Positions 556 to 57,900 of a DNA stretch of 64,000 bases are shown here, one piece after another; the stretch's first letter is position 1, and every line of letters begins with the position of its first letter. The translations under genes and the position numbers were made by a program. A model generated the notes under the pieces. The model made no database searches. It was not told the origin of the DNA and saw only the letters and a program-made list of their open reading frames with translations. Location of the stretch: contig OX031070.1 of the NCBI GenBank assembly GCA_943736015.1, positions 20,171,673 through 20,235,672 on the forward strand, given 5' to 3'. The stretch is from Tridacna crocea (lineage: Eukaryota > Mollusca > Bivalvia > Cardiida > Cardiidae).

Positions 556-784
556 TTACCCCTTTACTCCATAGATACTCATTTCTATGTATTGCTTGTA
601 AGAGCCTTTGGAAAACAATGTGGCAAAAGGTGAAATTTTTCGTGACGAGCGATTTCACCTTTTGCCACAATGTTTTCTACACTATTAAAAGGTGTCCTAT
701 ATACATAAGAAATGGCTTCATCCTTGCTGTTATTTAGAGTCAATTAGAGATACCATAGAAATGCCTTGTGTAGTAAAGGGTTAA
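556..784 (+). mobile_element. TTAA MITE, subfamily D
   Basis: Ends are TTAC/CCCTTTACTCC and GTAAAGGGTTAA. The central hairpin is built on GTGGCAAAAGGTGAAATT and its complement. It matches copies at 20833 and 25029. Confidence 0.8.
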
Positions 785-972
785 GAATGCTATTTACCAA
801 TAGATCTGGAATGGTTGGCAAATGTAGGCTAAGCTAACTTTCTGTAAGTATGGAAAAATGATTTCCCCTTTTACATTGTTTTGTGCATTGCTGGTGAAGT
901 TGGAACATCTGACTTTTCTCTGTCAAAGTAATGGGGGAGGAAGTCATTCATTATGTCACATATTGTGACACT

Positions 973-1196
973 TTATCCCATTACCACACAATCCCTACTT
1001 TTGACGCCCCTGAGAAAGAAGCCTTTAGGAAACATTGTGGGGGGAAAGGAGAAAATGCTGGTAACCAGCATTTTCTCCTTTTCCCACAATGTTTTCTACC
1101 CTTTACAAAACAAATTTCAAATTTTCAGTCACTTTTATTTTGTCGTCTGCAAATGCTTTCAAATTGGACATATATTGTCGTTTGGTAATGGGTTAA
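973..1196 (+). mobile_element. TTAA MITE, subfamily A
   Basis: It runs from CCCATTACCACACAATCCC to GGTAATGGGTTAA. The hairpin is intact with small changes in the left arm. Confidence 0.88.
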
Positions 1197-1214
1197 TCTA
1201 CTTTATTCAGGCTA

Positions 1215-1540
1215 AAGCTTAGCCTAAGTGGCTTGGTAGTGTACAGGACTTGAGAGCAATGGGATGCTGGTTTGATCCTTGGCTTGGCCAATTTCTTTCC
1301 AAGGATTGATGATTGTCATTTCAGCAAGATTTATCCTTCTCTCACTGCTGGTTATCGCATGGCTGATGGTTAAGATAAAAAGCAGCCAGAGGGTTAGAAA
1401 GAAAATTGTGTGGAGTACTGAAAAAGAATGTCCAGGGAAGCATTAGTAGGAGCACTGGCTCACAGTATAAGTGAAATAATGTCGAAAATGACTTTAAACA
1501 CCATTCAATGGATATATAGGAAAAAAGCAACAAAATTTTC
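1215..1540 (+). repeat. tRNA-derived SINE, family 3
   Basis: The head has a Pol III A box (TAGCCTAAGTGG) and B box (GGTTTGATCC). The body shares AAAGCAGCCAG, GAATGTC, CAGGGAAGCAT and GAAATAATGT blocks, in order, with 18292-18620. Confidence 0.7.
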
Positions 1541-3041
1541 AATAATATGATAATGGTTTTATTTTCATAGTGTTGGACAACTGTCCTAAAATTATCTTAA
1601 CATTTCAAAAACATAAGTGTTTGAGGAAACTCCTTAGAATTTTGTCACAAAAAAACATGTATAACACAGCTTATGATCAATATATGAGGAAGATTATCAG
1701 CCAACGTCAGTGAATCATCACTTACATAGTATGAACATGCTAGGGCAGTCAGCAGTAAAACAAATGAGCAGATTATCATTTCACAACCTGAGATCTGTAG
1801 GTGTTAACCAGGCATTCTTCTAGCACCTGCACATCTCAAGTGTTTTTATTGGTGTAATTATAGATTCCAAGACTAACTATCTCATTCAGTAAACTTCAAA
1901 TATTGGCTATTCTTACAATTCGCTCTTTGAGGTGAATCAAGATTCACCTAGACAGAATACCGTAGAAAATGAGGAGAGTCCTAAAGTATTATAAATAGTA
2001 GTGTTTTCAACTTGGTTCAGTTCTCTACATATTTGCTTTAAATTGGTTACTGAAAACAACAACAATAAGCATGTTAAAGAATACTAACAAAGTAATGTAC
2101 AGAATTTTCAGTATTATGGTAGATTATTCTTCCAGTCTATTTCAAGTGTCGTTCTGAATAACTCTGTCATTTCTATAGCTAGCCTTTAATGAATTTGAAT
2201 GCAAATGATCGATATACATGTATGTAGGCCCTGACTTATCATACATGTCCTACTTGTTCATCTATTCAACAGCTATAGTGTATGTCAGCAGTCTGCTGTG
2301 AGCACAATATGTAAACATTCCAAAAGGACAACAAGTGTATTACATCTTGTATATATATTTAACAATAGACAGATCAGCAGTGATACACAATACACAAATT
2401 TGAAACATTAAGAAAATATGCGCAATATAACAAGGTATTTAACTTGCTGGTGTAGGGAGGTTTTATATTTGTTTATATGTATTATTATGGTTTCAACAGG
2501 TGGAAACCATTCAAGCAATATTATAAATTAGTTTAAAGATCCTTCAAAAAGATAGTGCCTATTACTAATTTTTTGTACACCTTTCCTCTATCACAGCTTT
2601 TACATAATGACAAAAGTTTGTGCTTGAAACATTTGTTTTTGACCATACATCTGAAGGTTATTTCAAATATTTTGTTCTGCAGAATAACTTTCAACAGATT
2701 TTACTTAACTTTAACTATTGTAGTCTGACAAATACCCCACACTGGATTTGTTTTTATTTGTCTTCAAAGGGCCATTACTCCTGTTATAAAAGACAAGTCA
2801 TCACAAAAATTGCAGGTTCGCTTGTTCCAATGGTAAGGAAGGAGAGGGAGAGACATACAATTTGATTCCAGCATACCCTTCCCTGACTTTGTTGTGGGGT
2901 AGAATAATGATTCCTGCACCATTCAACATTATCACAAAGACAACATTTCCTTTCACGTAACCATTTACTCTAATTCTTCTTCAAATAAAAGATGAAATTA
3001 CATACATAATTCTAAAGGAAGCATACTTAAAAACTGCTTCA
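1541..3041. other. Intergenic stretch 3' of TEKT1
   Basis: I see no coding exon and no MITE here. The sequence is AT-rich and otherwise unremarkable. Confidence 0.55.
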
Positions 3042-3047
3042 TTTATT
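3042..3047 (-). terminator. Putative polyadenylation signal of TEKT1
   Basis: AATAAA on the minus strand, about 45 nt past the tektin-1 stop. The distance is short but plausible; cleavage was not observed. Confidence 0.45.
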
Positions 3048-3092
3048 CAATAATTTTTTTTTTTTTCCAAAAGTTCTAGCAAAAAAGAGGTT

Positions 3093-10284
<7,192 letters not shown>

Positions 10285-10639
10285 TCTGTAAATACAAGGA
10301 ATTCTAGATTACTGAAAGACGCCCTTATCTTCTAACTCTTTGAACAAAACATTCAATTCTGTGAGCATCTTGAGCCCAATGAGTCAACAGCAAAGACATA
10401 TAGTGCAATGCTTGGAAACGGGTGAGTTAAAACAACCTATCAAGTCAACAGAGTTTTTTTGAGAATTTAGCAAAAATGTATAAAAAATCTGTTGATTGAA
10501 AGATTTGCACGAAAATTCGACCCTTTACAAGCAAAAAATTCAATGTTCAAATCCCTAAGGAAGGCAACATTGGAAAAAAAGAAAATGGCAGTGATCCTCT
10601 GTTTTGTACAATGTTTTCAATCCTTTTAAAAACTGTCAT

Positions 10640-10868
10640 TTAACCCATTACCACTCAATCCCTACTTTTGACGCCCTTGAGAAAGAAGCCTTTTGAAAAC
10701 ACTGTAGGAAAAGGAGAAAATGCTGGTAACCAGCATTTTCTCCTTTTCCTACAGTGTTTTCTACCCTTTCCAGAACAAATTTCTATTTTTCAGTCACCTT
10801 TATTTTGTCATCTGCAAATACTTTCAATTTGGACCAGTCCAAAATTTTCTCGTGTGGTAATGAGTTAA
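10640..10868 (+). mobile_element. TTAA MITE, subfamily A
   Basis: TTAACCCATTACCACTCAATC to GGTAATGAGTTAA. The stem reads TGTAGGAAAAGG/CCTTTTCCTACA, a paired change from the usual TGTGGG/CCCACA. Confidence 0.9.
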
Positions 10869-11151
10869 GCCACTTTATATTTGTCATCTACAAAATGATC
10901 TGACTTATAATTACAGTAGTATAGTAGAAGTGTACAGTACGCAGTCAAAAAATAAGTTCATAAAGTTTCTGAAGGCCTGATGCACAATTCTGTGCAAAAG
11001 CTGATAAAGCTTCTAATTGGCCCATTTATGCGTCGTTTTCCCAGTTTAATTTGTAGTCTTTTGATTAAGACTTCCTGTTTCTGTTTCTGACATTTTCACT
11101 ATCCACTATTCTAACATTTTAATCCACTAAAAACAAACGGGTGATCCCTAA

Positions 11152-11380
11152 TTAATCCTTTCCCAAAGAATTCTTGGTTTTTACGGGTCCGGAATAGTAG
11201 CCTTTTAAAAACATTGTGGGAAAAGGAGAAAATGCTGGTAACCAGCATTTTCTCCTTTTCCCATAATGTTTTCTACCCTATCATAGACAGAAATCATCTT
11301 TTCAGCAAGAGTTGAATTGTCATCTGCAAATGCTTTCAATTTGGTCTAGTCCAAAAGTATGCCGTTTGGGAAAGGGTTAA
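11152..11380 (+). mobile_element. TTAA MITE, subfamily C
   Basis: It has GGTTTTTACGGGTCCGGAAT on the left and CCGTTTGGGAAAGGGTTAA on the right, with a full hairpin. Confidence 0.88.
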
Positions 11381-11789
11381 CACAGTCTTCTTCCAGAAGT
11401 AATGACATCCACTCAAGTTTATTTTGGCAACTGTGAGTGTGACGGTTAAATCATATGTAATATGGTTTGCTTTTGTGACAAATACGAATGTACTAAGATC
11501 GTTGCATTAAGAATTACGCTAAAAAGTATGCTAAAAGCTCCAAAATTTAATTCATCATCATCAGATATTAAAAAAAAAAAAACAAGTTGAGATGGATTCA
11601 TAGATCCAAGATCCAGTGAACATTTTATTTCATACGTTTTGGAACTAAATCTTTTATATAAGTTGAAAGAAATTGCATCAGAAAAACAAACCTGTATGAT
11701 TTTTCCCAGTTATATGTTCTATTTCAGATGTGTTGCTATCTAAATAAGGCTTTAATTTTAGCAATAACTCTGTTGTCAGACTCGAGTCT

Positions 11790-12068
11790 CTAAACAATGG
11801 TGGCTTCCGTAGCAACGACGTGAAAGAACCCCGTCTTACACGGCATATGATTGGCTCGTCGGAGGGAAAATGAGACCATTTATAAAGTGTATTTCTATTG
11901 GTTGATTGACTGACGCGACCTCATTTGACATATCACGTGACAAAACAAAAACCAATTTCATCACGGTATTGAGATTGTCGTATCATGTTTAGCCCAACGT
12001 GTGACAGGACGTTATCAATTTGTTTACAAATTTGTGCAATTGTTTAAAAACCCTGAAATTTTGGAATA
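11790..12068. promoter_or_regulatory. Candidate bidirectional promoter between TEKT1 and SLC25A1
   Basis: This stretch is visibly richer in CpG than its surroundings. It has two reversed CCAAT boxes (ATTGG at 11850-11854 and 11897-11901), a TATAAA-like stretch near 11880-11886 and a CACGTG E-box at 11934-11939. At 11809-11816, GTAGCAAC is the reverse of GTTGCTAC, an RFX X-box half-site; RFX factors drive many ciliary genes, which would suit tektin. Transcription start sites are not visible from sequence. Confidence 0.4.
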
Positions 12069-12144
12069 ATGGATAGGCCAGACCGACAACAAGGTGCATT
12101 GCCAAGAAAACAGTTCAAGAACACTTTAAAAGCTATCATAGCAG
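12069..12144 (+). CDS. SLC25A1: SLC25A1 coding exon 1
   Basis: It encodes [19 protein letters not shown] through AIIA plus one base. Donor G|GTAAGT. The Lys/Arg-rich start just ahead of helix 1 is typical. Confidence 0.85.
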
Positions 12145-15100
12145 GTAAGTGTCAATACTTTTAACTACTTAGTAAAACTCGACCAAAACCGGATGAGTAC
12201 CTGTTCGTCTGCTATTTTAGATCATGTTATGACAAAAAAAAAAAATTTATATTGAAATTTACTTTTGGTTAAAAAAAAAAAACTTAACGCGTAGCTGGTA
12301 GTGAACGAAATTCACATCATCTTATAGAAATAGAATAGTTTTCCCAAATTGTTCAATTAGCGTTCCACGAACACATTCACAGCAGACGACGGCAACGTAT
12401 ACCAATCAATTAATTAAGGTTTGATATACCATTGTCACACTTACATTACGATTTAAAATTAAAGCCGACATGTTTATCAACTAAAATTTTACGGGTGAAT
12501 ATGATAAAACACTTACCTGAACATGTTGGTTAATTCTTTACCAAACAACAAAAAATTAGACTGGTCCAAATTGAAAAGATTTGTAGATGACAAATTAAAT
12601 GTAACTGAAATAATGATTTTTGTTTTAGATGAGGAAGCAAACATTGTAGGAAAAGGAGAAAATGCTGGTTACCAGCATTTTCTCCTTTTCCCACAATGTT
12701 TTCAATTTAAGGCTTCTTAATATACAGGGTTGTCAAAAGTCGTGATTGTGTGGTAATGAGTTAATGATTGTTCTTCGAATATACAAGACAAGAGCATCAT
12801 ATGATACTTCATTGAAATAGAGGCTGTTGAGATCATACTGTTTGCTGGTTTTGTTATCATCAGCAAAAGTGGCAGAAAACAGAGGTTTGATTCAGCAAAA
12901 TGGCTACTTTGAAAAGCTTATTTTCAAAAAGGTAAATTCTTTTAGTGCAAAGACCCCATTCCATTAAAACTACAAATTATTCCAAGGCAGAACCTCATTT
13001 AAAGATTGTCATTTAAAGATTGTTATACTTCCATGATGTTTTGCCGTTAATGGGTGTCACAAATGACTAAGTTCTTCATTGGCTCTTAGCTCAGTGCATT
13101 GGATTTCTAATCCATAGCTTTGAGAAGACAAATTGTGAAATTTTATACACCCCCCCCCCCTTTTTCCCTCAACATTTACAAAATGTGCAACAGTATGTAA
13201 AGTGAGTATATGTGTTTTTTATTTAAGTATAATCCCAACCTTACAAAAGTACATGTACATGTAGATTGTTTATAAATACATAAACCCTCTACTCCACAAT
13301 CCCTTATTTTTAACAACCCTTTAGAAGAAGGTAGCCAGCATTTTACCCTTTTCCCACAAAGATTTAAGCTCTTTCATAGACAAATCTTTTCACTTAAGCC
13401 ATAATTGATTTATTGTCTCTATATTTAACCCTTAAACAGATGACAAACTTTAGCTTTGTCCAAATTGAAAGCATTTACAGATGACAACTTCTCCCTGATA
13501 GAGAAGGCTTTTGAAAACATTGAGGGAAAAGGAGAAATGCTGGTTTTCTTCCCCATCCAAAACAAAATCATCCTTTCAATTACATTTAATTTGTCAACTG
13601 TAAATCCTTTCAATTTGGACCAGTCTAATTTTTGTTATTTGGTAAATGGGTTAAAAGGGACTATCATTTTGTCTGGTACAGCATGAAACCTATTTGATGA
13701 GTTATTACATGAGACAATATTTGTTGAAACAGGAAGTGTTCTCTTATCAGCTAATGTAAATCCTGCCTACCTCAACCTCTTATAAATGTACTTTAACAAG
13801 AAAGAGTTTACTTAGATCAAATTGCATGACAATGCAGCCTGATCTGTATGTCCTTGGAAAGTTGTTTTGTGGTACTACAGGAAGTGATCACTTATTAAAT
13901 TCCCATTACAACAAACACAAGTTTAGACTGGACCAAATCAAAACCACTGCAGATGACAAATGAATCAAATTCAGCAAGTACAGTTTTCACCGATAATGTC
14001 TTGGCTTTTTTTGTTTTAGATTTTTTCTACACCTTTATTTTTTGGGGGGGAGGGGGTGTAAGTGATTAGATAATGTCAACAAGGGTGGGACAGAAAGGCA
14101 AATCACCACATCTTCCAACTGTACGTGTCTCAATCAGCAGATACCATCTAAGTGTTTACTCCATACCAAAATGACAAAGTTTTAGACTTTAGTATTGTAA
14201 AACCATTTGAAGCGACAAAAGATATGGCTCAGGTCAGATTTGTCCTGAGAAATAGTTGTTTAAAAAAAACAATGAGGGAAAATGAGCCACTTACAAGCAT
14301 TTTATCCTTTTCCCACAGTAGTTTTGAAACCCATTTTGATCAGGGTCGTGGTAAAATGGGCTTGTTGGGTAAAGTGTTGACTTTGAAAATCTGAGATAAA
14401 AGGGTCCAGCGAAGAAACTAAGTCTCACTAAGTACTCAGAGCTGTTTAAAGAAGGAGTTCACTTAAAATCTCTAAAAGACATTGTTATTTTGCTGTCTGG
14501 TCTCTATATACAACACTTTTTATGAAAGCGACAAACATCATCTTGAGTATTAAGCTAAGCCTTTTCTACCTTTACAAAGAAGACAAACAATACACTAGGA
14601 AGTAGAGCCAGTCTTTTTAACTCTATACTTTACCACAAAATTTTAGACTTGTCAGTAATGAAAACTTTTCGCAGATGAAAAATTTAAAAGTTCTCACATG
14701 ATGGAATTTGTCTTTGGTTAGGTTAGAAAGTGTGGGGAAAGAAGGGAATGCTGTTTATCAGCATTGCCTCTTTTTCTGTCAATGTTTTTTTTTTTCAAAG
14801 GGTTGTTTGTCAAGGTCGTTGAAACTTGTTACTGTTTAATAAAGGGTTAACTCTTTACAATGCAACATGATTCAAGACTTGTTCATTTTCAAAAGCATTA
14901 GCAGACAATAAGTGAACATGAGTGAAGTGATTTACAAGGTAGAAACACGGTAAGGGAGAAAATGCCAGTCTTTTAAAAGAGAACACTAAAAAGGGAGAAA
15001 ACAATCATGATCCATGGTACTTTCACATTTTCCAACAGTGTTTCCCAAGCCTATTGCAGAGTTATAGTATCGGTGGAGTGTGGATCCTTAGCCTTGTATA

Positions 15101-18100
15101 CACTAATTAATTCCTCCAGAATGAGGAGGTAAATGTAAGTCAAGATCAGAGCATGCAACTTGCAGTTTAATCTTTCATCTACTCCACCTGTTTTTTATTC
15201 CTTGATCAATAATTTTTTCAGTATCTTGCTTTTGATAAAATGAATGACAGATTAAGAGTTTATGTTATATTATTATGGCTTTGAATCCCTTAACTCATTA
15301 CCAAATGTTAGGTTTGTCCAAATCGAAAACATTTGCAGATGACAAAATAAAAGTGACTGAAAATTTGAAATTTATTTTGTGAAGGGTAAAAAACATTGTG
15401 GGAAAAGGAGAAAATGCTGGTAACTGGCATTTTCTCCTTTTCCCACAATGTTTTCTAATGGGTTCTTTCTCAGGGGCGTCAAAAGTAGGGATTGTGTGGT
15501 AATTGGTTTAGTGTTTTTCTTTTATTTGAATTTGTTGTTGATTCGCTTGTCTGAAAAAAAAAAACATCCTGAGACACTTAAAATTACTCCTAACCATTAC
15601 TGTCGCTTTTTTAGCAAGAAAATAGTTTGACTTTTTTTTTTTAACCCCTTCCCAAACGACAAACTTTTGGACTAGACCAAATTGAAAGCATTTGCAGACG
15701 ACAATTCAACTCTTGCTGAAAAAGATGATTTCTATCTATGATAGGGTAGAAAACATTGTGGGAAAAGGAGAAAATGCTGGTTACCAGCATTTTCTCCTTT
15801 TCCCACAATGTTTTCAAAAAGGCTACTATTTCAGACCCGTAAAAACCAGGGATTGTTTGGGAAAGGGTTAAACTTAAGAAAAATATCTGTAAATTTTGTA
15901 GACTTGTTCCAAATGGCAATAAAATCTGCAATATCTCCGTTATCTTTCATAAAAGGTAAAGGGTTCAATAATGACCGAATTGCAATCAACCTATCATATT
16001 TCATCAAAACAACTTATGTGACAAATAGTTTTGGTACATGTATCCATGAATGCACAATGCATATTATTACTTCATTGATTACAAAGCACAAATAATTGTT
16101 CTCAACATAGAAAAAAATTATAGGTAGAAATTGTATTTTGTATCTGTGTAAGGGGCAAAACCTTGTTTTTCGCAGCTGTAACCCCTTACCATACACTTCT
16201 ATGTTTTAACAAGTCGGAGGAAGAAAGCGTAGGAAAACAGTGGAAAAAAGGAGAAAATGCAGATGATCAGCATTTTCTTCTTTTTCCACAATGTTTTCAA
16301 CCTTTTCTAAGACAAATTCAAAAAATTGAGCCATTTATAGTGTATTATCAGTCATCTAAGAACATCTTGTATTTGGACGAATCTGAAAAGTCTGTCATTA
16401 GGATAAAGTCCTTTGCATTAATTTTGTAACTGTCCTTGGTTTACATAACAGCCAAAAACAAGTAAATTTGGGATTGAATTTTTTTCTGAAATAGATAAAC
16501 AATATATTATTACTAAGAGGGCCAATCACAACTATTATACACATAGCTAATTTTATGCTCTATGAAAATCACGATTTGACTGTACAAAGCATGCACTCTG
16601 GTCTTAGAGCGAATGTACTGTCTGGTTTGCTGTGTTTCGGTGAAAGCAGTCTTGCAAATGCAATGATTTTAGTTATGACACGTCACTGAAACTAGTAGTT
16701 TTTTGTGCCCTGAGGTTTAAGTTTGTTTTATCTAGGGAACTGCAGTTATGACATAAATAAGTCATTGACTTTAACGCTTTCCCAAACAAGCCCTTGTTTT
16801 TATGTGTCTGCAGTACAAGTCTTTTGAAAACACTGTGGGAAAAGGAGAAATTGCTCATAATGAGCAATTTCTCCTTTTCCCACAGTGTTTTCTACCCATT
16901 TGGAGTACTTTCTGCCATTTTTATTAAATTCAAAATTGTCGTCTGCAAACTCTTTGAGTTTGGAATAGTGTATTTGTCATTTAGGAAAGGGTAAAAATAA
17001 TGTCATGGCATTAATTTTTGAGTATGACTTTACTGTTGCTATTTTTGGTCATGGAATCCTATACATGACTGTGTACTGTGTAACACTATATTTATAAACA
17101 AAATGTTCTGTTTATAAGTTCATGTCTAAAAACTAGGTCAGTGAAAGTGTAATATTTATGTAATTAAGTAAGACATTTTATGCCAGAATTTCTCCGTTTT
17201 GGCACTGATCATGGGTGTTAAAACATGGGATTACAAATTATGACAAATGATTCAAGATGTTTTCTCTTCCTTCAAATTTGTCACCTTCAAGTCACTTTGA
17301 CCGGTTAAGGTCTTGTAGAATAATTCTTGGTTTAACTCTTTACCACAAGACAAAATTTTAGACTGGTTCAAATTGAAAGCATTTGTAGACGACAAAATAA
17401 AGGTGACTGAAAAATTGAAATTTGTTCAGGGAAGGGTAGAAAACACTGTGGGAAAAGGAGAAAATGCTGGTTACCAGCATTTTCTCCTTTTCCTACAGTG
17501 TTTTCAAAAGGCTTCTTTTTCAGGGGCGTCAAAAGTAGGGATTGTGTGGTAAAGGGTTAACCTATACTGATTTTCAGCCAAGTCCTGTACGCAGCCCTAC
17601 TGACTGAGCTACCGGGGCTAGGCACACTTGATAAGGAAGTTTCTAGCTCCTCCGTCCAATATTCAAAGCATATAGAGAGAACAAGACCTACCGTATTAAA
17701 TGTAGTTTAAATCAAAGGAATTGTCATTAGGTAGAAATATAATGTGTTAATGAGAAAATACTGGTTTCCAGTATTTTCTCTTTTTTCCGCAGTGGTTTCA
17801 GGTCTCCTTCACAGTTGTTAACTCTTTGCCTCCTTAGGGCGACTCACTAACCTTTTTGCAGAAAGTGTTGATCACTAATGTACTGCACAAAGCGTGCAGT
17901 CTGATCTTGGATCTAGACTGTCTATTTAGGAGATATTATTCCCCAAAATACTTATAACTGCTAAATTGTGATATTTGAGTTTTTACTATCAAAATGAGAA
18001 TTTCTTTTTAGTTACTGAGCTAGATGAGGGTTAAAACTTGGGATTGTATGTAAGGTCATAAATGATAACGATGAAGGCATTGTTTATATCCCAGCTGACT

Positions 18101-21100
18101 CTGAGGGTCAAAGTCTTCATTTTGCTCTAGATATTGACTCCATCCTCTTACTCCATAATGGAAGAAAAGTTCTGCAGGAAAATATTATCTTATTTGATGT
18201 ATAAGTCTTTATTTAAACAATGTGGAAGGAGTCCAAAAGCAGTGATAACTGCATGTTGTTCAGGAGACTGATTGAGTACGTTGTAATTACTTCTGGCCCT
18301 CACAGTAGCTCAATCAGTAGCAGAACAAGATGTCAAACTAAAAGTTGCTTGTACAAGTCATGGCTCAGTCAAATTCTTTCTGTGTATTAATGATGACCAT
18401 TGTGAGCTGTCTTGTTCCTCTCTCACCTATGAGGGGTGTCTCATCAATAATTATGTAGAAGAAAGGCAGCCAGTTGCTTGGAAAGAATGTCATATGAAGT
18501 GCTGGTTAAAAATTATTCAGGGAAGCATGAAAAGTTGCATGAGCTTTTGAGATATACCTGAAATAATGTAAAAAATGACATTGCAGTGATTGAACACCAA
18601 GCGAATAAGTAACATATAGTGTAACTAGACCTTTTGAAATGACAGAAAAGGATGTAACTTACAGAATATACAGTTATGATATAGGGAGGTATACCTGGTG
18701 TAACTGGTTAACACTTTACCACACAACTAAATATTTAACTGCTCCAAATTGTAAACATTTGCAGACATAATTAATCAAACACAGATAAAAAGATGAGATT
18801 TGAATGATGGGAAAGAAGCCATGTTAGGAAAAGGAGAAATTGCTGTTTAGCATCATCTTGTCTTTTTCCCAAAATGTTTTCAAAAGCTTGTTTTCCTTGG
18901 GTTGATTACAGTTGGGATTGTGTGGTAAATGTTAATTTTTCATCATGGATTTGATGAAATTGGAAGTATATACAGAATTACAAGTCTGAAATGCATGGAG
19001 TTATAAAGTATTGTGGGAAAATAAGAGAAAGCTCATTAAGATTTTCTTTTTTCCCCGTTATTTTTTCTTTTCAGAGCCTCGTGTTCTTTGGCTTGTCTTG
19101 AAAACAGTGTTGTTTGTTAAGGGTTAATGAAGTAGATTAACTATTATCTCCTTTATTGTATGTCAAAGTGTCTTGTTTAACTCTTTACCAAATGACAAAA
19201 TTTAGACAAGTCCAAATTGAAAGCATCTGCAGACGACAAAAAAAAAATGTGAATCCAACATTGAAATTTGATTTGGGGAGGGTAGAAAACATTGTGGAAA
19301 AAGGAGAAAATGCTGGTTACCAGCATTTTCTCCTTTTCTCATGATGTTTTCTCACGATGTTTTCAAAGGCTTTCTTTCTAAGGGTCGTTAAAAGTCGGGA
19401 TTGTGTGGTAAAGAGTTAACCCTTTGCCAGACTGTAAAATTTCAGTATTTGCAGACAACAATTTCAGTGTGGCTCAAGTGGTGCAATTTTTCTTTGATAG
19501 GAGTGGAAAACATTGTAGGAAAAGGAGAAAATGCTGGTTACGAGGGTTGTTTAAAGGTGGCTTTATGTGGTAATAGGTTACGAAACAAAATTTTAACATA
19601 ATGTTTAGCCAGATTTAATTCTCATCATCTGCAAAATGCTTGCGATATGGACAAGTGTAATTTTTTTTGGTGAAGATAAATAACTAAATATCAAATGTTT
19701 CTCACCGCTGGGTATGTTGTAACTGGTATGACCTGTAACATAGTTGATTTTCAAATCCTGTATGTATGTTGTAACTGGTACAAGAATTGATAAAATTTGT
19801 GAATACAGCACCAGTCAGCTTTCTTAACCCTTTCCCTAACGACAAACTTTTGGACTAGACCAAATTGAAAGCATTTGCAGACGACAATTCAACTCTTGCT
19901 GAAAAGATGATTTCTGTCTATATAGGGTAGAAAACACAGTGGGAAAAGGAGAAAATGCTGGTTACCAGCATTTTCACCTTTTTCCACCATGTTTTGAAAA
20001 GGCTTCTATTCCAGACCCATAAAAAACAGGGATTGTTTGGGAAAGGGTTAACAAAGTCATTGTCAACTTTGTGATCAATCAGCTCCATATGTGACTTTCT
20101 CGGTACCAGTTCTAGGAACAAACTTATGGATTTTACAATAAATATTGCCTGCCTCTCTCCATCTTTTATTTCAACACTTCACCAAACTGTAAGGTTTTAT
20201 GCTGAATCATACTGTAAGCATTTAGTGCTCAGCATTTGCAAGCAAAAAATTAAATGTATTGCAAATGTAGATTCCTGTCTTTAGTGGGGTATGAAAAATT
20301 GTGGGACAAGGAAAAAATGCTGGTTAACAGCATGTTCTCCTTATTCAAATGTGTTTTCAGTATCCTTCTTGTTCAAGGTCATGAAACTTGGGATTGTGTG
20401 GAAAATGGTAAACTTTAAAACATTATTTTGTCAAAAATGTGCACTTGTCCAAATTCAAAGCAATAATTATTGCAGACAATTTAGATGTGAGTCAAATGTT
20501 TGAACTTGCCTTTCGTAAGGTATGTAGAAAACAATGTGGGATAAGGAGAAAATGCTGGTTAATAGAATTTTCTCCTTTTTCCACAGTGTTTCCAAAGGTC
20601 CCCTCTCTCTCACTGTCATTAACCAATTCCCAAACAACAAAATTTTAGGCTTGTCCAAATTGAAAGCATTTGCAGACAACAAAATAAAAGTGACTGAAAA
20701 TTTGAGATTTGTTTTGTGAAGGGTAGAAAACATTGTGGGAAAAGGAGAAAATGTTGGTTACCAGCATTTTCTCCTTTTCCCACTATGTTTTCTAAAGGTT
20801 TCTTTCTCAGGTAGGGATTGTGTGGTAATGGGTTAACCCTTTACCCCATAAGGCATTCCTATAGTATTTGTAATTGACCTTAAATAACAGCAAGGATGAA
20901 GCCATTTCATTATGACTGTGTATGTGACACCTTTTGATAGCATAGAAAACATTGTGACAAAAGGTGAAATTGCTCGTCATGAGCAATTTCACCTTTTGTC
21001 ACAATGGTTTCCAAAGGCTCCTATAAGCAGTGCGTCAAAATGAGTATCTATGGAGTAAAGGGTTAAACAAGACAACACATAATTACAGATCCATAATACA

Positions 21101-24100
21101 TACTTATTCTGACAATTGGCTTGCTACAGAGGTAGGATGGTCCTTGGATATATGCAGAAAATTTAATGAAAGCAAGAACTTTTGGCCAATGTTAGCCAGC
21201 ACAGGCTGCCCAGGCTGACCTTGGCTGATACTTTTTAACAGATGCATTAAACCCCCTTTTCACAGAGAAAGGCTAAATGAAATCAACATTCTTGGCACAG
21301 TTTGGACATGTGCATGAAACTTTTCTGTTTGGGAAAAAATCCTAAGGTAAGACTGCAGTATTGTAGATACAGAAGCTAATGTCGAACTAAGTGTTTATCA
21401 TTCAGCGTGTAACATGATTATTTATAATACTGTGTTTTAGGAAAATGGGTTAATTAATACATTACAAAACACATTCAAGTTTTTCTCCAAATAAATGCAC
21501 CACAGCACATGAAACATGATTGGTGAAAGGAGCGTGACTGCTTTGTACAAGAAGTAATATATTTTTCAAAAATGCTTTCAAGGTTAATTTAAAAAAAAAA
21601 AAGGCCTTTGCTTTCATAATTGTAATTGCTACAATTATGCCATAAGTACAAGTAAGTACTCGTGCAATGAATTGACCTTTCTGTAAACGTGAGTTTGGCA
21701 TGCCCCCCTTAATAATGCCTGACAAGCCAACCAGAAAATGGTATTGAATTCAAAGAGAAAGAGCGCTTATTTCAGTTTTATTCTAGCTGATATTTCGCTC
21801 AAGGTTAATTACAAAAAAAATTTTCCCGAACTTTCTTGTCAATTCAAATTGTGTTGGCTGTTTTGATAATTAAATAGACATGATCAAATTATCACATGTC
21901 TATAGAAAATTGTGTCAGACTTTTTTGTTTACATGATACCCATACTGCGTTTTCATTGGCTGATAAGACGTTAGAAGTCCTATCAATCAAAAGCGGCAGA
22001 AAGGTCAATTATAAGTATAATGTTTCAGAAAAGCTTAACCCTTTACCAACTGTCTTATGATTTGATGACCCTGAGGAAGACAGGGTTTAAATACCCCCGC
22101 GCCCCCCGCAAGATTTTCTATACTTCCAGGATAACCAAAATTATGAATTATTATGTCTTCAGAATATACAGACTGTTTGAACTATATTTTTCATTCATTG
22201 CAAGATACTTTAGATCCAAGGTCAGAATGTTTGTTCTCTGCTCACTTGATCTACATGGGGTGTAGATCCATAATCAGATTTTACAACCTGATCCATCTTA
22301 CAAACTTCACCCTTTTCCAAACAATTGAAGGTTTAAATGATGCTGGGGAAGAAGCCTTCTGAAAATATTGTGGGAAAAGGAGAAAATGCTGGTTACCAGC
22401 ATTTTCTCCTTTTCCCACAATATTTTTAAAAGCTTTCTTACTCAGGGGTTGCTTTAACTTGGGATTGTGTGGTAAAGGATTAATGTACAGTGTGGTAAAA
22501 TGACACAAACTCCTTAGAATCACATGTATAGTTGACTTTATGTCTTTGTTTTCCAGGTGGCATCACAGGTGGTATAGAAATATGCATCACGTTTCCTACC
22601 GAATATGTAAAAACCCAGTTACAGCTTGATGAAAGGTCTGGAAAGGCTCGAAGATATACTGGACCAATCAACTGTGCACATGTCACTGTAAAAGACTTTG
22701 GTTTTAGGGGTCTATATAGGGGTCTCTCAGTGTTGTTGTATGGATCTATACCTAAATCAGCTGTCAGGTAGGTCTACTCTTTTAGCTTTAAGTAGAAATC
22801 TCTATTCTCAACAGACATGAAGGTTCTGGCTTGATATAAACAGGTGAAAATGCAAACTGCTGGTTCTTTCCCACAATGTTTTCAATGGCCTTCCTCCTCA
22901 GGGTCATTAAAGGTAGGTATTTAGATTTTTCACATCACACCAAATTAAAGAAAATATATGTAATAGAAATTTATATGAAAAAACAATACAAATCATCAAT
23001 GATTATAAAAATACGAAAATTATTATGGCAGAAGAGCTTAGCTCTCTACCAAACGACGAAATTCTAGACTTATTCCAAATTGAAATCATTTGCAGACAAC
23101 AAAGCAATTAGATGTGATTTTGGAATTGAAATTAGGTTTTTGGGTAGGATGAACATATTTTGGGGAAAGAAGAAAATGCTGGCAACCAATATTGTCAAAA
23201 GTCTTCTGTAGAGTCATGAAAACCCAGGATTGTTTGGTAAAGGAATATGGTTCAGTAATTTAAGATAACACAAGATATTTAAAAAGTGAATCAAATTTTT
23301 AACTTCTCCACACTCAACATCTGAAGGTATCTTTGTTGACAGTGCAGTTAACTCTTTACCACACAATCACAACTTTTAATGATCTTGAGAAAGAAGCCTT
23401 ATGAAAACATTGTGGATAAAGGAGAAAATGCTGGTAACAAGCATTTTCTTCTTTTACCACAATGTTTTTTACCCTTACAAAACCAAATTTCAATTTTTCA
23501 GTCAGATTTATTTTGTCGTTTGCAAATGCTTTCAATTTGGAGCAGTCTATAATTTTGTCATTTGTAAAGAGTTAAAGATTAGAGACTGCAGAATATGTGT
23601 TAAGTTTGCATCTCCATTTCTGTGTCCATAATTCTAACAAATAATTCAACTAAAAACTCTTTCAAAATCAAAATGGAGTGGCCTTCAAATCAAAATTGAG
23701 TGGCTTGATCTACCTAAGAGATACTCATTACATAACTTTAGCATGTAACAAAAAGAATTTCGGGAACATTTTATCATTTCAGTATAGACTATATCTAATC
23801 CCATAAAAAATCTCCAGACTAAATTATTGGTTTCTGTTTGACACTGCACTGAGAAACTGCTTTGGTTTTTGGGAATCAATATAGCAACCCTCTTGATCAA
23901 GCTGACATAATAACTGGTTAAAGGCATGGGATTGGAAACTCTATGGGAGAAAATCAATGTCTTGTTAACCCTTTCCCAAATGACAAATTTTCGACTTTTC
24001 CAAACTCAAAGAGTTTGCAGGCGACAATTTCAAATTTGATAAAAATGGCAGAAAGTTCTCCAGATGTGTAGAAAACACTGTGGGAAAAGGAGAAATTGCT

Positions 24101-27100
24101 CGTTACGAGCAATTTGTCCTTTTCACACAGTGTTTTCTAAAGACTTGTACTGCAGACACGTAAAAACAAGGGCTTGTTTGGGAAAGGGTTAAAGGAGATG
24201 CTAGATTATATCTAGACAGAATTATACCTCCACCACAAACAGAAGCCATTTGAAAGCATTGTGGGAAATGGAGAAAGTGTTAGTAGGTTAATTAGCATTT
24301 TTTCCTTGTCCCTCAATGTTTTTTACAGCATCAGAGATCAGTCACATCATTTGAGCCACAGTAAAACTATCCTTTGCAAAATCTATCAATTTGGACAAGT
24401 CTTTATTTTTGTTTTGTGGTAAAGAGTTACTGGCATCTCTATTTGTACTGATTAATGGGCTGTCTAGCTATTTGTCCTTAGCTTAAAGATTTTGTCAGAA
24501 TGATGTTTTACAGCTAATTGAACAGTACCGGTATTTCAGTCTTTTTTTCAGCAGTATTTCAATTTTGCTTTCAGTAACTAAACTGAGTTCCACAGGGCTT
24601 TTCCCATTGACATTTCAAAATGATCAAGTTTTCCAGCAGAGATTGAACCTGGATCTTCTGCTTATAAATCCAGCTACTGAATCACAATGAAGTTTAGGCT
24701 TGGCCTAAAAGTTAGCAGTTCTAAGATGAGGAAAAATGAAAATGTCCAGATAGTAAAAAATCATTACCTAACAATCCCATGTTTAACACACACGAGAAAA
24801 GGAGAAATTACTTAATCGTTTACTACAGCTTTTAATGACCCTGAGGAAGAGGCCTTTTGAAATCTTTGTGGGAAAAGGAGAAAATGCTGGTGACCAGCAT
24901 TTTCTCCTTTTCCCACAAATTTTTCTACTCTATCAAAGAAAGAATGCATCATTTGAGCCACTGTGAAATTATCATGTACGAATGCTTTCTGTTTGGATAG
25001 GTCTAAAATTCTGCTGTGTGATAAAGGGTTAACCCTTTACTACGTAGATACTCATTTCTACGCATTGCTTGTAGGAGCCTTTGGAAAACATTGTGGCTAA
25101 AGGTGAAATTGCTTGTGACAAGCAATTTCACCTTTTGCAACAATGTTTTCTACACTATCAAAAGGTGTCATATACACATAAGAAACAGCTTCATCCTTGC
25201 TGTTATTAAGGGTCAATTAGAAATACCACAGAGATGCCTTATGGGTATGGGGTAAAGGGTTAAGCAGCCAGCATCTCCATCTCCATTTCTAAGCTTTTAA
25301 AGACAAACTTCAATTGTTTTGACTGCATTCTATTTCATTGGCTGCAGATGCTTCAATTTACTGTACTATTTTCAAAGGTCTCTTTCCTGTGGGTTCATTA
25401 AAACTCGGAATTGTATGGTAAAGTTTTACTAGTCAGAATATCTCACAGAATGCCATACAGGGTTGATATGAGATTGAACTGCATGTTACATGCCATTGTG
25501 TCTGGCATTTACATTTACATTTATCTCTTATACTGCTACAGTTATAGTCATGAACATTTTCTCTTTGGAAAATATCCAAATACACATTTCAGTTTTCCAG
25601 CAATATATCTCAGCAAGCTATCTTACATTGTAGATCCAGCTGTCCATGAAAATACCTAATGTTGCCCTTTGAGTTCAGATAACATTATCCTGTTAATTTT
25701 GCAGATTTGGTGTTTTTGAAGAGCTTAAAAGACATGCTGTTGATTCAAATGGCGTTTTAACACCTTCCAAAAGACTGTTATGTGGATTAGGTATGGAAAA
25801 CAGTATGATTGAAATTGGTTGTGTATGTATGTTTGTGTTACGGTAGATACAAATGAGTTTGTGTCATCCTCAGATACCCCAGGGTCTCCCTATTTGCTAC
25901 GCTACATCGACCCTGGGACAATTGACTAATAAAACTTTGAATCAGCCGCCGAAAATCGATACTAAACGTCATACCGTACAGTACACTCGCCCATCACAAA
26001 ATGATGATAGAACCAATGAAAAGCCAGCATTCGGCCAGCGGTAAAGCGAGCGGCCGAAAATCGATACGAAACGTCATAGCGTACAGTACACTCGCCCATC
26101 ACAAAATGATGATGGAACCAATGAAAAGCCAGCATTCGGCCAGCGGTAAAGCGAAGGAAATTTAACTAATTGTCCCAGGGGTCGATGTAGCGTAGCAAAT
26201 AGGGAACCCGGGGTATCCGAGGATGAGTTTGTGTCATGACCTTGCCTGTTTGTATGTTGTTAGGGGGTGAGAAAAGGGGAAGGAGTTTTTCCATATCTTT
26301 TGTTTGCCTTAACTTTTAGTTCAAACATCATTTTTGAAACTAAAAATCTAATTTGACCAAACTCCACATAAATGATGTTGGCATGGTCCTCTTCAGAACT
26401 TCGTCATAAAATGTAATTACTAAGTGGTAAAATATGTTTGCCATGCTGACAAAATAAAAAACAAATAAATGATAATTCTGTCAGTCTTCTTCTCCAAAAC
26501 AGCGCATAGAATTCCCTAGGCTGCAAGTTGGCATTAATTACCCATTGGTGGATTGTTGATATGATTTTGATCTAGTATACAACATGGCTAATGTGGGCAT
26601 GGTTCATAACAAGCTGCATTTAAGCTTTTAACTGATGAAAGGAAGAAACTGCTCTCTCCATATGACATAGTTTGTTACCATTTATCACACATTTCCTTTA
26701 TTCTTAAATTTGTTATTCTTTTTTTCACTCATATGAAGAAAAATATCATTCAATGAATTGTATTACATTTTTCAACGGTAAATACTTTAGATATAAACAA
26801 GTATACAATTAAATTTTTTCCACACAATCCTGATCTTTAATGACCCTGAGGAAGGACCCTATAGAAAACATTGTGGGAAAAGGAGAAAATGCTGGAAACC
26901 AGCATTTTCTCCTTTTCCCACGACATTTTCTACCCTAACAAAGTCAGAAATCATAATATTAACAAGATTTAATTTGTCGTCTGCAGATGCTTTGAATTTA
27001 GTCCAGTCCAGAAATTTGTCCAATATCGTTTCAGTATCTGTCAAGATTTTAAAAACAACTTACTATTTAGAAGAAGCTGATCCACTTATAAAATGTTTGA

Positions 27101-30890: not shown

Positions 30891-30935
30891 GATACAAAAT
30901 CTTGGCATCATATACCAGTGCAGTTTCTGAACCCA

Positions 30936-31157
30936 TTAACTCTTCACCAAACAATAAAATTTTAGCATTGTCCAAACCCAAAGCATTTGCAGATGACAAA
31001 ATAAAAGTGACTGGAAATTTGTTTTGTGAAGGGTAGAAAACATTGTGGGAAAAGGAGAAAATGCTGGTTACCAGTATTTTCTCCTTTTCCCACAATGTTT
31101 TCTAATGGCTTCTTTCTCAGGGTCGTCAAAAGTAGGAATTGTGTTGTTATGCGTTAA
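30936..31157 (-). mobile_element. TTAA MITE, subfamily A, first of tandem pair
   Basis: TTAACTCTTCACCAAACAAT to TTGTTATGCGTTAA, which is also the start of the next copy. Confidence 0.87.
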
Positions 31158-51911: not shown

Positions 51912-54900
51912 GTATCTATCTTTTTTTATTATACTTTTTTCCCTATGTGTCTGTTGTAAATGCAGTTCAAATTCTGGGTTCAAAGTATAACAGATGGTAG
52001 ATATCCGAATTGCGAAGCCAGAATATGATTAATATCTCATCCAATAAGATAAAATAAAAATCATAAGGGTTTTTTCATCTGTTTTTCCAAGTATGTTCAT
52101 TACAATAAATAATTGCTCCTTTTCTCACAGTTTTCCATATTTTTGAATAACAACTTTTTGTATGTCCTGTGATTAGATTACCATCTGGTAGATCTAAATT
52201 TTGCTTGTATACAAACAGGCCTACAAAAGAATAAAAAAAAAAATTTTTTGTCCTAAAGGTAAAGATGGTATAAGCTTATGTTAGCCTTCACTTAGTCCTT
52301 TATGACAGTTTTTGTAAAAACTCTCTAGTCAACAGAGGTTGAAGTGAAAACTGACAGTGTATTTCTTTGTGCATTTACAGAAAACTGAAGAGTGTTTCTT
52401 ATCAGACTTATTGCCATGTTCAGAACAAACCATATTGGAAATAAACAACTTGACAGAGTTATCTCCAATTAACAAGGCATCAGGCAAGATATTATTGGTT
52501 ACATTTAGTTTCTCCCTTTGACAAAAAATGCAAGGTTTTAATGACTGACAGACAAACTTTTTAAAAAGGTTAGATAAGGAAAAGATTTTGTAACCTGAAT
52601 CTTTCCTTTTCCAACAGTGTTCTACCCAATCAAAGAAAAAACCCATCATCTGAGCAACCGTTAAATTGTCATCTGCAAATGCCTCAGAATAGGCAAGTCT
52701 TTTAACCCTCTCCAAAATAATCCCTGTTTTCTACTATGATGGGAAAGAACGGTTTTGAAAAAACTGTAGGAAAAGTAGAAAAAACTTGTAGACAGCATTT
52801 TTGTACTCTCCCTTAGACCAAAAAGTCATCATTAACATTACAAATGATTTGTCCTTTTTGCACAATGTTTCATATCTAAACAAGGACAATTACTATTAGT
52901 TGATGAACATTTGAGTAGATTTCTATAAATCCTTCAATATGGAAGAGTCCTCAGTCTTGCACTGTGGGAAAGGGTTTAACTCTTTACTACCAAACAAAAT
53001 TTTATACCCATCCAAAGTCAAAGTATTTGAAAGACGACAGTTTCATTGTGGCTGAAATGAAACTTGCCTTTAATTCAGTAGAAAACTTTGGAAATCAGTA
53101 TTTTCTCCTTTTCTCACAAAGTTCTCAAAAGGCTTTTTCACAAGGGTTGTTAAAAGTCAGTATTGCATGGTAAAGATTTAAGAATTTGAATCATGCTTTA
53201 AATTCTTGCACATGTGTATTTTTTTAATAGTTCTAACTTGCCTTGATGAGCGATATGGGGTTGACAAATTTTACACAAATGCTGGAAGTACAGTAGTTGC
53301 TATTAATCCATTCAAAGATGTATCCAACTTATACAGCTGTGATATGGTGTTTGCCTACCATTCAGAAGATCTGGTTTGTAAATTTACTTTTTTGAATGAT
53401 CAAAAATTTCAGTAGCATCATTTTTTGGTCATAGAAAAATGTTGACTGCAAATTCATGATCAGCCAGCCAATTCTGCATTGAATAATTTGATTTTAAACT
53501 GATCTAACTATCTTTTTATACCCCAAGCTTTCTTTACATTCATTCGCTAATAATCTTCTTCTTTAATTTTACTTTTTTACTTTTTGCTTTCACTGTTTGT
53601 CAAAGAAGAAAATTTTGTTTTCAAACTGAAAGCATTTGTAGATGCAAATTTAACATAGTTGAAATAGTGATTTCTTTCTCTAAAAGGGTAGAAAGCATAG
53701 TGGGAAAGGAGAAAAATGCTGGTAACCACCATTTCCTTCTTTTCCTGTACTGTTTTCAAAAGCCGTCTCCTGGAATGTTTGAATCTTAGGATTGTTTAGT
53801 AAAGGATTAAATCTAACTTCAAATTATTTCTAGGAAGAGCCCCATATATATCAGATTGGATGCCAGGCATACAAAAGAATGTGTCAAGAATTGGGCCTTG
53901 TGAACCAAACGATCATAGTGAGTGGTGAAAGTGGATCTGGTAAAGTAAGTGACAGAAATCTTACAATTCTGTCCTTAGTTGGTTACCAAAAAGCTTATTT
54001 TAGATATTTCACGACTCAACCAATTGAAACTAAGGAGACATTTTAACTCTTTACCAAATGACAAAATTTTGGACCACTCCAAATTGAGAGCATTTGCAGA
54101 TGACAAAAGTGACAGAAAATTTGAATTTTGTTTTGTGAAGGGTAGAAAACATTGTGGGAAAAGGAGAAAATGCTGGTTACCAGTATTTCCTCCTTTTTCC
54201 ACAATGTTTTCTAAAGGCTTCATACTGAGGGGGCGTCAAAAGTAGGGATTGTGTGGTAATGGGTTAACTCTTTACCAAATGACAAAATTTTGGACCAGTC
54301 CAAATTGAGAGCATTTGCAGACGCCAAAATAAATGTGACTGAAAATTTGAATTTTGTTTTGTGAAGGGTAGAAAACATTGTGGGAAAAGGAGAAAATGCT
54401 GGTTACCAGCATTTTCTCCTTTTCCCACAATGTTTTCTAAAGGCTTCATACGGAGGGGCGTCAAAAGTAGGGATTGTGTGGTAATGGGTTAACTCTTTAC
54501 CAAATGACAAAATTTTGGACCAGTCCAAATTGAGAGCATTTGCAGACGCCAAAATAAATGTGACTGAAAATTTGAATTTTGTTTTGTGAAGGGTAGAAAA
54601 CATTGTGGGAAAAGGAGAAAATGCTGGTTACCAGCATTTTCTCCTTTTCCCACAATGTTTTCTAAAGGCTTCATACTGAGGGGCGTCAAAAGTAGGGATT
54701 GTGTGGTAATAGGTTAACTCTTTACCAAATGACAAAATTTTGGACCAGTCCAAATTGAGAGCATTTGCAGACGCCAAAATAAACCTGAATCAAAGATGGA
54801 ATTTTGAATTGGAAAGGGTAGAAAACATTGTGGGAAAAGGAGAAAATGCTGGTTACCAGCATTTTCTCCTTTTCCCACAATGCTTTCAAAGGCTTTCTTT

Positions 54901-57900
54901 CTTGGGGTTGTTAAAAGTCGGGACTGTGTGGCAAAGAGTTGAACCACTTACCAAAGTATCAGATAACCTGTATTTTCTGCATGCTACATGTACCAACTCT
55001 TTCAAAGACATTTTTACATCATTTGAGACACATTTAATGTGTTGTTTGATAGTGTTTTGAATTTGGACTCCATTTGTTCATTGGTATTTATAGGAAAATA
55101 TTAGTTTTGAAATGACAAGATGTTTACGGTACCAGCTGCATAGTTATCTTTGAAAATTTTAACCAAAAAAAAATTACGCTACAAATTCATTTATTATTGT
55201 AATCTTTCACTAAACAATCCAAACTTTCAATGACCTAATGAAAAGGACTTCTGAAGACATTGTGGGAAAAAGAGAGCACAGTGGTTACAAGCATTTTCTT
55301 GTTTTCCCATTCTTTCTGCTCTTTTAACCTTTTACCAAGCAATCCCTGGTTTTTACAACCCTCAGATAGAAGCCTTTTGAAAACATTGTGGGAAAAGGAG
55401 AAAATACAGCATTTTCTCCTTTTCTCACAATGTTTTCCTCCCTATCAAAGAAATATTCCACCATTTCAGCCACACTGAAATTAATGTCTGCAAATGCCCT
55501 TAAAGGTGGGTATCTAGAATTTTCACATCCCACCAAATAAAAATATATATATATCACTGAAATGTATATGAAAAAACAATACAAGTCATCAATAATTAAG
55601 AATCATAAAATTACATAAAAACTTTTTTGATGTTATTCCCTTAAAAGGCTACGTAACCTCTTAACCCATTACCACACAATCCCTACTTTTGACACCCCTG
55701 AGAGAGAAGCCTTTTGAAAACATTGTGGGAAAAGGAGAAAATGCTGCTAACCAGCATTTTCTCCTTTTCCCACAATGTTTTCTACCCTTCACAAAACAAA
55801 GTTCAAATTTTCAGTCACTTTTATTTTGTCGTCTGCAAATGCTTTCGATTTGGACAAGCCTAAAATATTGCCGTTTGGTAATGAGTTAAGCTATTTTTAG
55901 ATCTCCCGCAAAAAAAAAAAAAAGCAATGTTGGAATGTAAAGTGACTGGTACGTGACTAATGACTGAAATTCCGTAAAATGAGAAACATGTAATTATTTT
56001 CCATAATGTCTTCTTCGGACGCTATGTTTGAAGCTTTGTCTGTATATTTTTGGTGTGTAAATGAGCGAGTTGCTTATCTAAAAATAGACCATGTTTCCCA
56101 TCGGTATCAAACTGGGCTGTAGTAAATCTCTAATTTCTTATGATGTCGGATGGTTTTCGACTGCTAGGGTGTTATGAACGAAAATTATAAGGCTTTTGGA
56201 GTATAAGGATGATTTTTTTGTATTCTTGTTAAATTTTTGTCCCAAAATCTGAAGGGCCACCTTTAATTTGGACTTGGCTACAATTCTGTCATCTGGTGAA
56301 GGGTTAAAGGCAAGTCCCATTGTTCTGGTCATATTGGCAAATGCTTTCAATTTGCACATATCTGAAATTTTGGTCAAGATTTGAGATAGGAATTTGAAAG
56401 TTTGAAACAGAAGAGGCATCAGTTGATTTGTTGTTGAACCTTTGAATAAGAAAATGATAAATATGAAATGTAATACTAATATTATAGTCAACAATCAGAT
56501 AGAAAACAAGAAAGGACAAGAAGTAATGTAGTCATATCTTTCTTCAGACTGTGTCAGCTAAACATCTTCTGAGGTATATGACAATGATCGCCAATTCCTC
56601 TAGGTAAGTATGATATTAACCCTATAAAAAATCCTGTGTTTTAATGCTTTCAAAAACATTGTTGGAAAAAGAAAAAAAATGCCGGTAACTAGTATTTTCT
56701 GCTTTTCTCACAATGTTTTCCATGCTTCCCAAGACAAATTCCATGATTTTTGAGCTTCATGTGGTTTGCAGATGCTTTTAATATGGATGAGTCTAAGTTT
56801 AATTTTCTGATAAAGTGTAAAGAAATAAATTTGGTTTGCCATTTTTTTCCAAAATATACATTGTAAGATATACATGTATACATTTACAGACAGAAAATAT
56901 GAGATTCCAAATAATGATAGATGAAAATCTCGTCAATTGAACAATTTTTCCATTTCACACAAAGTTTTTCTTTTAATCATCTTCATACCCACAGTGGTAA
57001 AGTGTAGGAATCATCACCTGCAGGCCCCAGGTTCAAGGCTCACAGGATCCCCTGGGCTTTTTGTGGGAGTGTCTTGGGCAAGATCCTTCAGAAGTCTTAG
57101 TTCTGCTGGAATCCAGAAAATAAGTGAATATGCGAGCTGTCACTGATATGGCTGAAAAATTCTTGAAACTGGTGTAAAACACCTTTCAGTCATACCCGCA
57201 TGGTATCATTCCTTTCAGCTTTGATATGGTTTTGAATTTTGATGAAAGTGATCAGCTCAAGTTGTGAATGGTACATATTTTTTCCCTGCAAAAGGCTATT
57301 ACTGTTCTTTCACATTGTTTCTGATATTTTGTCCATAACTCATTTTAATAGTGTACCATTATTTACAGAGATAAAAGCAGTGACAGACACAGTCCCCAGG
57401 GTCAGTGTGTTGAGAGAAGACTTCTGGATTCAAACCCAATACTTGAGGCATTTGGCAATGCTGTGACACAGAGAAACAATAACAGCTCTAGGTTTGGGAA
57501 GTTTATCAAGCTACAGTTTTCAAGGTTAGCATAACCACGGCGGGGAATCACGTGACACAACAACGACAACAATGACCGTTATTTGAAAAAATTCCCCAAC
57601 TTCAGGTAAGAAAATCTTCAATAATTCCGTTAATACGTGACCGATTGGAATTTGGTTTGAAGCAGAGAAGGCGGAAGGACTCCGGGGATTTGCTTGATGT
57701 GTTAGATTTCTTAAACAACACCAGATAAAAAAGTTATTGACGAGCAAACAAATTATCCAGGGTAAAAATTTTGTTTGCTCGTCAATAACTTTTTTATCAG
57801 GTGTTGTTTAAAAAATCTAACACATCAAGCAAATCCCTGGAGTCCCTCCGCCTTCTCTGCTTCAAACCAAATTCCAATCGGTCATTTATTAATGGAATTA

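Follow-up and report, generated by a model that had tools for sequence, protein, structure and literature searches.

The element family in the window

The window considered here is a 64-kb stretch of the Tridacna crocea genome (C15:20171673-20235672; 1.05 Gb in 31 contigs, of which C1-C18 run from 77 to 40 Mb and C19 measures 57 kb). Among its open reading frames are two with Pfam matches to tektin (E-values 1.4e-48 and 1.9e-26) and a third with a match to a mitochondrial carrier (9e-06); the best solved-structure match for the window's frames is tektin chain 8snb_8Q. Our subject is a repeat found throughout the window which, by its sequence, appears to be a non-autonomous miniature inverted-repeat transposable element (MITE) of the piggyBac (TTAA) type, about 229 bp long. 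Its short terminal inverted repeats (TIRs) start with TTAAC, and a left arm of ~105 bp and a right arm of ~53 bp (hereafter the flanks) enclose a central 71-bp palindrome centred on a single nucleotide; the flanks have diverged between subfamilies and the palindrome has been kept. A preliminary description had reported that the hairpin stems of the subfamilies differ by matched changes on both arms, and had attributed this to selection for the fold or to copying of one arm onto the other. The stems that it quoted, and three single-copy examples, are indeed present in the sequence. Its statement that each stem comes with its exact complement does not apply to every copy, the inner right arm of the copy at 556 being itself damaged.

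The phenomenon extends well beyond the copies first described. Core searches located 92 hairpin centres across the full 64 kb and a further 203 in 29 stretches of 10 kb from elsewhere in the same genome. Of these stretches, 27 were spaced picks, with 171 centres over their 270 kb, and the remaining two, L025 and L026, adjoin the window and contain 32. Of the 295 centres, 257 were strong and 250 had room for flanks, 38 having been dropped with E-values above about 1e-6 and 7 for lying too close to a stretch end. Typing by left flank assigned 172 copies to A (B included), 23 to a satellite type X and 18 to D, with 37 unassigned. One exact 31-bp core occurs 183,553 times genome-wide (91,934 + 91,619), and a search of viral contigs for an exact 29-bp core, from which records of this genome were possibly excluded, gave 0 matches.

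Clustering yielded six groups of at least six copies, with consensi of 228–230 bp, too short to encode a transposase and in keeping with the short, noncoding, high-copy character of a MITE. All six read TTAAC...GTTAA (individual copies vary), and TTAACCC stands at 10 of the 12 consensus ends, the exceptions being the left ends of A1 (TTAACTC) and E (TTAACCT); the two TIRs agree at 16–18 of their first 22 bases. These subfamilies derive from 250 copies out of a very large population in one genome.

Matched changes between subfamilies

Pairwise identity among the six consensi is 41–90% in the left flank, 57–87% in the right flank and 83–100% in the stem, a comparison biased towards stem conservation by the use of the core to locate copies, although it was the flanks that initially set D and B apart. 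Where the stems of the consensi do differ, matched differences fall at five column-pairs: 10/62, 16/56, 23/49, 28/44 and 33/39. The A1 and D consensi differ at four stem pairs, all of them matched and none unmatched, an outcome with a probability of about 3e-7 (hand arithmetic) if four changes per arm were placed randomly.

The expectation that paired columns should covary above chance was borne out. Among 45 ungapped rows (42 distinct) taken from 114 such rows, 12 pairs were changed on both sides, as against 5.0 (standard deviation 1.5) after shuffling, with 0 of 500 shuffles as high; sliding the partners by 1–3 columns gave 4–6 such pairs, and pairing cells made up 94.0% as compared with 90.7% in shuffles. 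This test mixes subfamilies and related copies, and is silent on when the changes occurred. Much of the signal comes from a few subfamily-diagnostic columns: three changes, at 10/62, 28/44 and 33/39, account for 34 of the 66 matched cells in the 172 A-type copies (B included).

A tree built from the flanks only (189 of 226 aligned copies) assigns the changes to branches. On its larger branches (at least 3 copies), 41 of 48 changed pairs are single-arm and 7 are matched, the latter at 10/62 (twice), 23/49 (once), 28/44 (twice) and 33/39 (twice); pair 16/56 is split in the tree solely by one stray leaf. Two-copy branches carry 57 single changes, no matched ones and 1 unmatched double (58 pairs), and terminal branches 679 single, 32 matched and 37 unmatched double changes (748 pairs). 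Matching on deep branches is a tendency and not a rule. The matched pattern is a property of the mobile lineages and not of the copies resident in the genome.

Arm changes in resident copies

Changes within resident copies were counted in 166 A-type copies (A and unassigned, core score >70, with 8 B-like ones set aside), with and without pair 10/62. When that pair is excluded, 4483 cells are unchanged, 606 are changed on a single arm (313 + 293), 33 are matched and 27 are unmatched doubles. Divergence-stratified shuffles expect 20.0 (standard deviation 4.1) matched and 23.3 unmatched doubles, and 2 in 1000 reach the observed matched count; with the number of changes per copy held fixed, 18.1 matched are expected and 0 of 600 trials are as high as 33. 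The small matched excess is therefore real.

Its distribution is informative. Pair 10/62 being left out here and in the stem-position, arm-mismatch, fold-over-independence and flank-relative analyses, the matched count is 8 against 1.7 expected in copies of low divergence (98 copies), 13 against 6.0 in those of middling divergence (42) and 12 against 10.7 in old ones (26). A process acting on the arms of every inserted copy should leave an excess that grows with age; since it does not, hidden sublineages are the simplest source, and the low-divergence part is best explained by changes made before insertion. By position, the outer stem holds 29 matched changes against 14.1 expected and the inner stem 4 against 4.4. 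Doubles exceed independence 1.92-fold at partner columns and 1.30-fold at non-partner columns.

If the arms of a copy had been homogenized, they should resemble each other more than they resemble the parent consensus, and this is not observed. Across 155 copies the arm-to-arm mismatch is 0.123, against 0.135 under independent arms, and the distance to consensus is 0.073 for the left arm and 0.069 for the right; the arm-to-arm mismatch falls below the larger arm-consensus distance in only 10 of the 155.

A genome-wide count at the inner pair 30/42 gives the same picture. A30 occurs alone 2884 times, T42 alone 3006 times and both together 139 times; for the non-partner control, T48 occurs alone 2506 times and A30 with T48 94 times. 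The ratios to independence, 2.94 at the partner pair 30/42 and 2.39 at the non-partner pair 30/48, are both inflated by age mixture, and the partner excess over control is 1.23-fold, about 1.6 standard errors by hand arithmetic and not significant. This is one pair, in a part of the stem without a local excess, and the counts, albeit loop-oriented, sum both arms and are little affected by orientation. We accordingly reject regular arm copying in resident copies, given mostly single-arm changes, an arm mismatch near independence and no significant excess at 30/42. Of the two processes first proposed, the matched changes that both were meant to explain stand between subfamilies, and copying as a regular process does not; in resident A-type copies the arms decay nearly independently, and between subfamilies paired changes exceed chance.

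The centre base of the palindrome (column 36) is highly variable, being T in 125, A in 15, C in 8 and G in 3 of 151 A-type copies. By comparison, A makes up 2.2% at 20 other T columns, and C and G are raised at the centre too. The position may simply be free, or the core may occasionally be inverted.

Single-copy examples and column-pair 15/57

Individual copies had also been offered as instances of covariation, and these fare unequally. At 25029, GCTTG/CAAGC in place of GCTCG/CGAGC is CpG decay, both changes lying in CpGs; among 17 D copies pair 33/39 reads CG in 14 and TA, TT and CA in 1 each, and pair 34/38 reads GC in 11, GT in 3, AC in 2 and AT in 1. For the TGTAGG/CCTACA change of the copy at 10640, a flank-relative with a hairpin at 17437 has the right-arm T and lacks the left-arm A, which suggests that the change arose in steps.

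Only the third example, TGAC/GTCA in the copy at 20833, probably represents a paired sublineage, and its single-arm forms are commoner. A15 marks a sublineage of D: seven of the 17 D copies carry it (six A/C and one A/T), and a flank CA beside the stem is found in 7 of 7 of these as against 3 of 10 others. Genome-wide, loop-oriented D counts at 15/57 are G/C 4246, A/C 3752, G/T 817 and A/T 699. Taken at face value these yield an odds ratio of 0.97 and apparent independence, a reading that we reject because G/T is indistinguishable from A15/C57 with an inverted centre base. Both of the local ungapped D copies with the centre GTGAC (L015_1987 and L001_1378) are indeed of the A15/C57 form when oriented by their flanks, and the likelihood from the 17 local D copies is 0.166 for 76 true G15/T57 copies and 0.006 for 640. 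Few true G15/T57 copies being thus favoured, A15/T57 probably represents a genuine paired sublineage, several hundred copies strong, although this reading is uncertain.

Satellites and rearranged copies

Satellites provide a natural control. At least 4 of the 27 spaced stretches (L017, L018, L021 and L022, the four loci on which TRF was run) are wholly tandem satellite with periods of 1600–1852 bp, and each unit contains one decayed MITE hairpin. The four satellite consensi have in common six right-arm positions changed from A1 (40, 46, 57, 60, 62 and 64) and no left-arm change, with 6 unmatched stem pairs in L018, 5 in L021, 7 in L017 and 8 in L022. Without transposition, then, the palindrome of the satellites has drifted apart. 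At this frequency among the spaced picks, hairpin-bearing satellites may form a sizeable part of the genome.

Flank typing of the 250 copies found 161 with normal left and right flanks (L/R), 2 with left-type flanks on both sides (LL) and 2 with right-type flanks on both sides (RR), 85 not being fully classified. One LL copy, near 13.5 kb, has been rearranged in a complex way, and of the RR copies the one in L026 is doubtful. In the other LL copy, at 58283-58546, the halves show 5 left-only, 16 right-only and 4 common changes over 103 columns, and such inequality fits better with recombination between copies of different age.

Proposed selection on source elements and its alternatives

The reading that we favour, with a probability of about 0.48, is that symmetry of the palindrome is weakly selected in transposing source elements as a cis-acting transposition site. 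The palindrome would serve as a site used in transposition, and source lineages would spread better when both half-sites match, such that changes fixed in a new subfamily would tend to match on both arms, as at the five column-pairs. After insertion a copy would no longer be selected and its arms would decay independently, as seen in A-type copies; a matched excess in young and not in old copies is expected if the matched changes predate insertion. Single-arm intermediates would still be able to spread, as they have in D, so that matched states probably arise in two steps. By analogy with piggyBac and piggyBat, we infer that the site may be read as duplex DNA by a dimeric transposase domain.

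Several observations weigh against this reading. Independent fixed events are few, and 41 of the 48 changes on larger branches are single-arm. The consensus of E (six copies) has unmatched positions at 9 and 58, and that of B has one at 38, which belongs to a CpG of B-type stems. The unpaired D forms at 15/57 total 4569 (3752 + 817), as abundant as the ancestral pair at 4246, and any selection must therefore be weak. The satellites are about one lineage, their common changes recording one history and not four, and the L021 satellite holds one re-paired position, A15 with T57.

A less probable account is rare arm-to-arm copying in founder elements: template switching or fold-back repair would occasionally rewrite one arm from its partner, and single-arm changes would become matched in one stroke at the founding of a subfamily, with no need for selection on individual bases. 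The four matched and no unmatched differences between A1 and D are what such copying would leave, the existence of LL and RR copies demonstrates that an inverted half of the other kind can take the place of one half, and template switching between inverted repeats in yeast is described as homogenizing arms and inverting spacers (PMC8604942). The centre base is odd here too, 15 of 151 copies having A, but the frequencies of C and G are elevated alongside it. Also opposed are the unequal halves of the intact LL copy, the lack of a significant process in resident copies at 30/42 genome-wide and the persistence, unrepaired through many copies, of the D single-arm sublineage. Subfamilies could conceivably, if improbably, be born by such re-palindromization, one template switch mirroring a whole arm and fixing several matched changes, sometimes with the flank (LL/RR). 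At similarly long odds, the event would leave compensatory-like marks without selection on single pairs, single-arm variants drifting freely beforehand.

Slightly more doubtful is selection for a folded single strand, as DNA cruciform or RNA hairpin, in place of the duplex dyad. Three sequences are very stable when folded as DNA (-39.1, -34.1 and -39.1 kcal/mol; z -15.7 to -17.3), but any long palindrome would fold equally, no Rfam family matches the hairpins, and the symmetry extends through 34/38 and 35/37, in or beside the loop, as is equally expected of a duplex dyad. The present data do not separate selection for the fold, as first proposed, from selection for a duplex site with dyad symmetry, and in either case it is weak.

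We consider it a shade less likely again that there is no constraint at all, and that subfamily accidents, mixed ages, CpG decay and sublineages mimic covariation. In keeping with such an account are the 606 single against 33 matched changes, the inner stem with no excess, the CpG decay at 25029 and the 2.39-fold excess of non-partner doubles genome-wide from age mixture alone; it is harder to reconcile with the A1-D differences, the outer-stem excess or a palindrome far better conserved than its flanks. A known structured RNA is rejected, a window scan finding no Rfam family at gathering score on the hairpins. The sole Rfam match in the window is tRNA-like (40499-40554, 31.6 bits) and is not reported by ARAGORN.

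Comparison with known systems

Among the open-licence literature searched, the closest known case is that of the CMITE families of Acropora corals, described in the part of the account drawn on here as of piggyBac kind, with a TTAA duplication, CC[C/T]T-type TIRs and a length of about 100 bp, of which the internal region takes up ~75 bp; their number in A. millepora is put at ~1600 copies (PMC2872659). Both share the duplication, the kind of TIR, tandem arrays and an internal region that is better conserved than the ends (here the stem, by the identities given above) and is suspected of a role in transposition (PMC2872659). The clam elements differ in being 229 bp long, in their perfect central palindrome and in the abundance of exact 31-bp cores; the same part of the CMITE account describes no palindrome or matched arm changes, and the likeness is one of description and not of alignment (PMC2872659).

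Internal palindromic repeats are likewise described for piggyBac, where a dimer of the C-terminal cysteine-rich domain binds a palindromic 19-bp internal repeat (PMC7351741), and for piggyBat, with three imperfect palindromes of which the innermost occupies bp 107-120 of the left end (PMC11707139); the piggyBat transposase likewise binds palindromes through dimers of this domain. As described, those palindromes are short (19 bp) or imperfect and lie within the ends, unlike the single 71-bp palindrome in the middle of this MITE. Quasipalindrome template switching, as reported, would similarly make arms identical and invert the spacer (PMC8604942), but no regular process of this kind is detectable in the resident copies tested.

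Should the palindrome be a required dyad, the genome offers a natural mutagenesis experiment on a TTAA-transposase site, with a MITE that keeps one internal site while nearly all its surroundings change. Founder re-palindromization, if true, would be a way for mutation by itself to produce what looks like compensatory evolution. In any event, a fold is not proved by matched stem changes in repeats, as age mixture, CpG decay and sublineages produce many of them, and palindrome symmetry can itself distort loop-oriented counts.

Features of the window

Table 1. Elements discussed in the text, in window coordinates.
Feature	Position	Strand	Remarks
D-subfamily element	556..784	-	hairpin 609-679, TGGC/GCCA; inner right arm damaged; ends from 229-bp D consensus
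C-subfamily element	7614..7842	+	hairpin 7719-7789; A-type stem within different flanks
A-subfamily element	10640..10868	-	hairpin 10693-10763, TGTAGG/CCTACA
B-subfamily element	16771..16999	-	hairpin 16824-16894
A-subfamily element	17332..17560	+	hairpin 17437-17507; shares the right-arm but not the left-arm change of the 10640 copy
D-subfamily element	20838..21066	+	hairpin 20943-21013, A15/T57 = TGAC/GTCA; ends from consensus length
RR element	22343..22445	unstranded	palindrome extended, right-flank type on both sides
B-subfamily element	23964..24192	+	hairpin 24069-24139
D-subfamily element	25029..25257	-	hairpin 25082-25152, GCTTG/CAAGC; both changes in D-consensus CpGs
Tandem run, four A-type elements	54038..54942	+	225-226 bp spacing; one TTAA common to neighbours
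LL element	58283..58546	unstranded	two left-flank-type halves around a shortened palindrome

Further tandem runs of whole MITEs, at a spacing of about 225 bp, lie at 30929-31382 and 45027-45480. On the minus strand, a tektin exon frame (5219-5626) extends into one end of the MITE at 5563-5791, the insertion being directly beside the exon. Three other imperfect palindromes, at 5885-5974, 43694-43814 and 57701-57821, have no match to the MITE core and are possibly other foldback elements. Outside the window, L003, with which L014 is grouped, has several long reading frames similar to those for an integrase and a packaging ATPase, and may thus contain a large virus-like (Maverick/Polinton-type) element.

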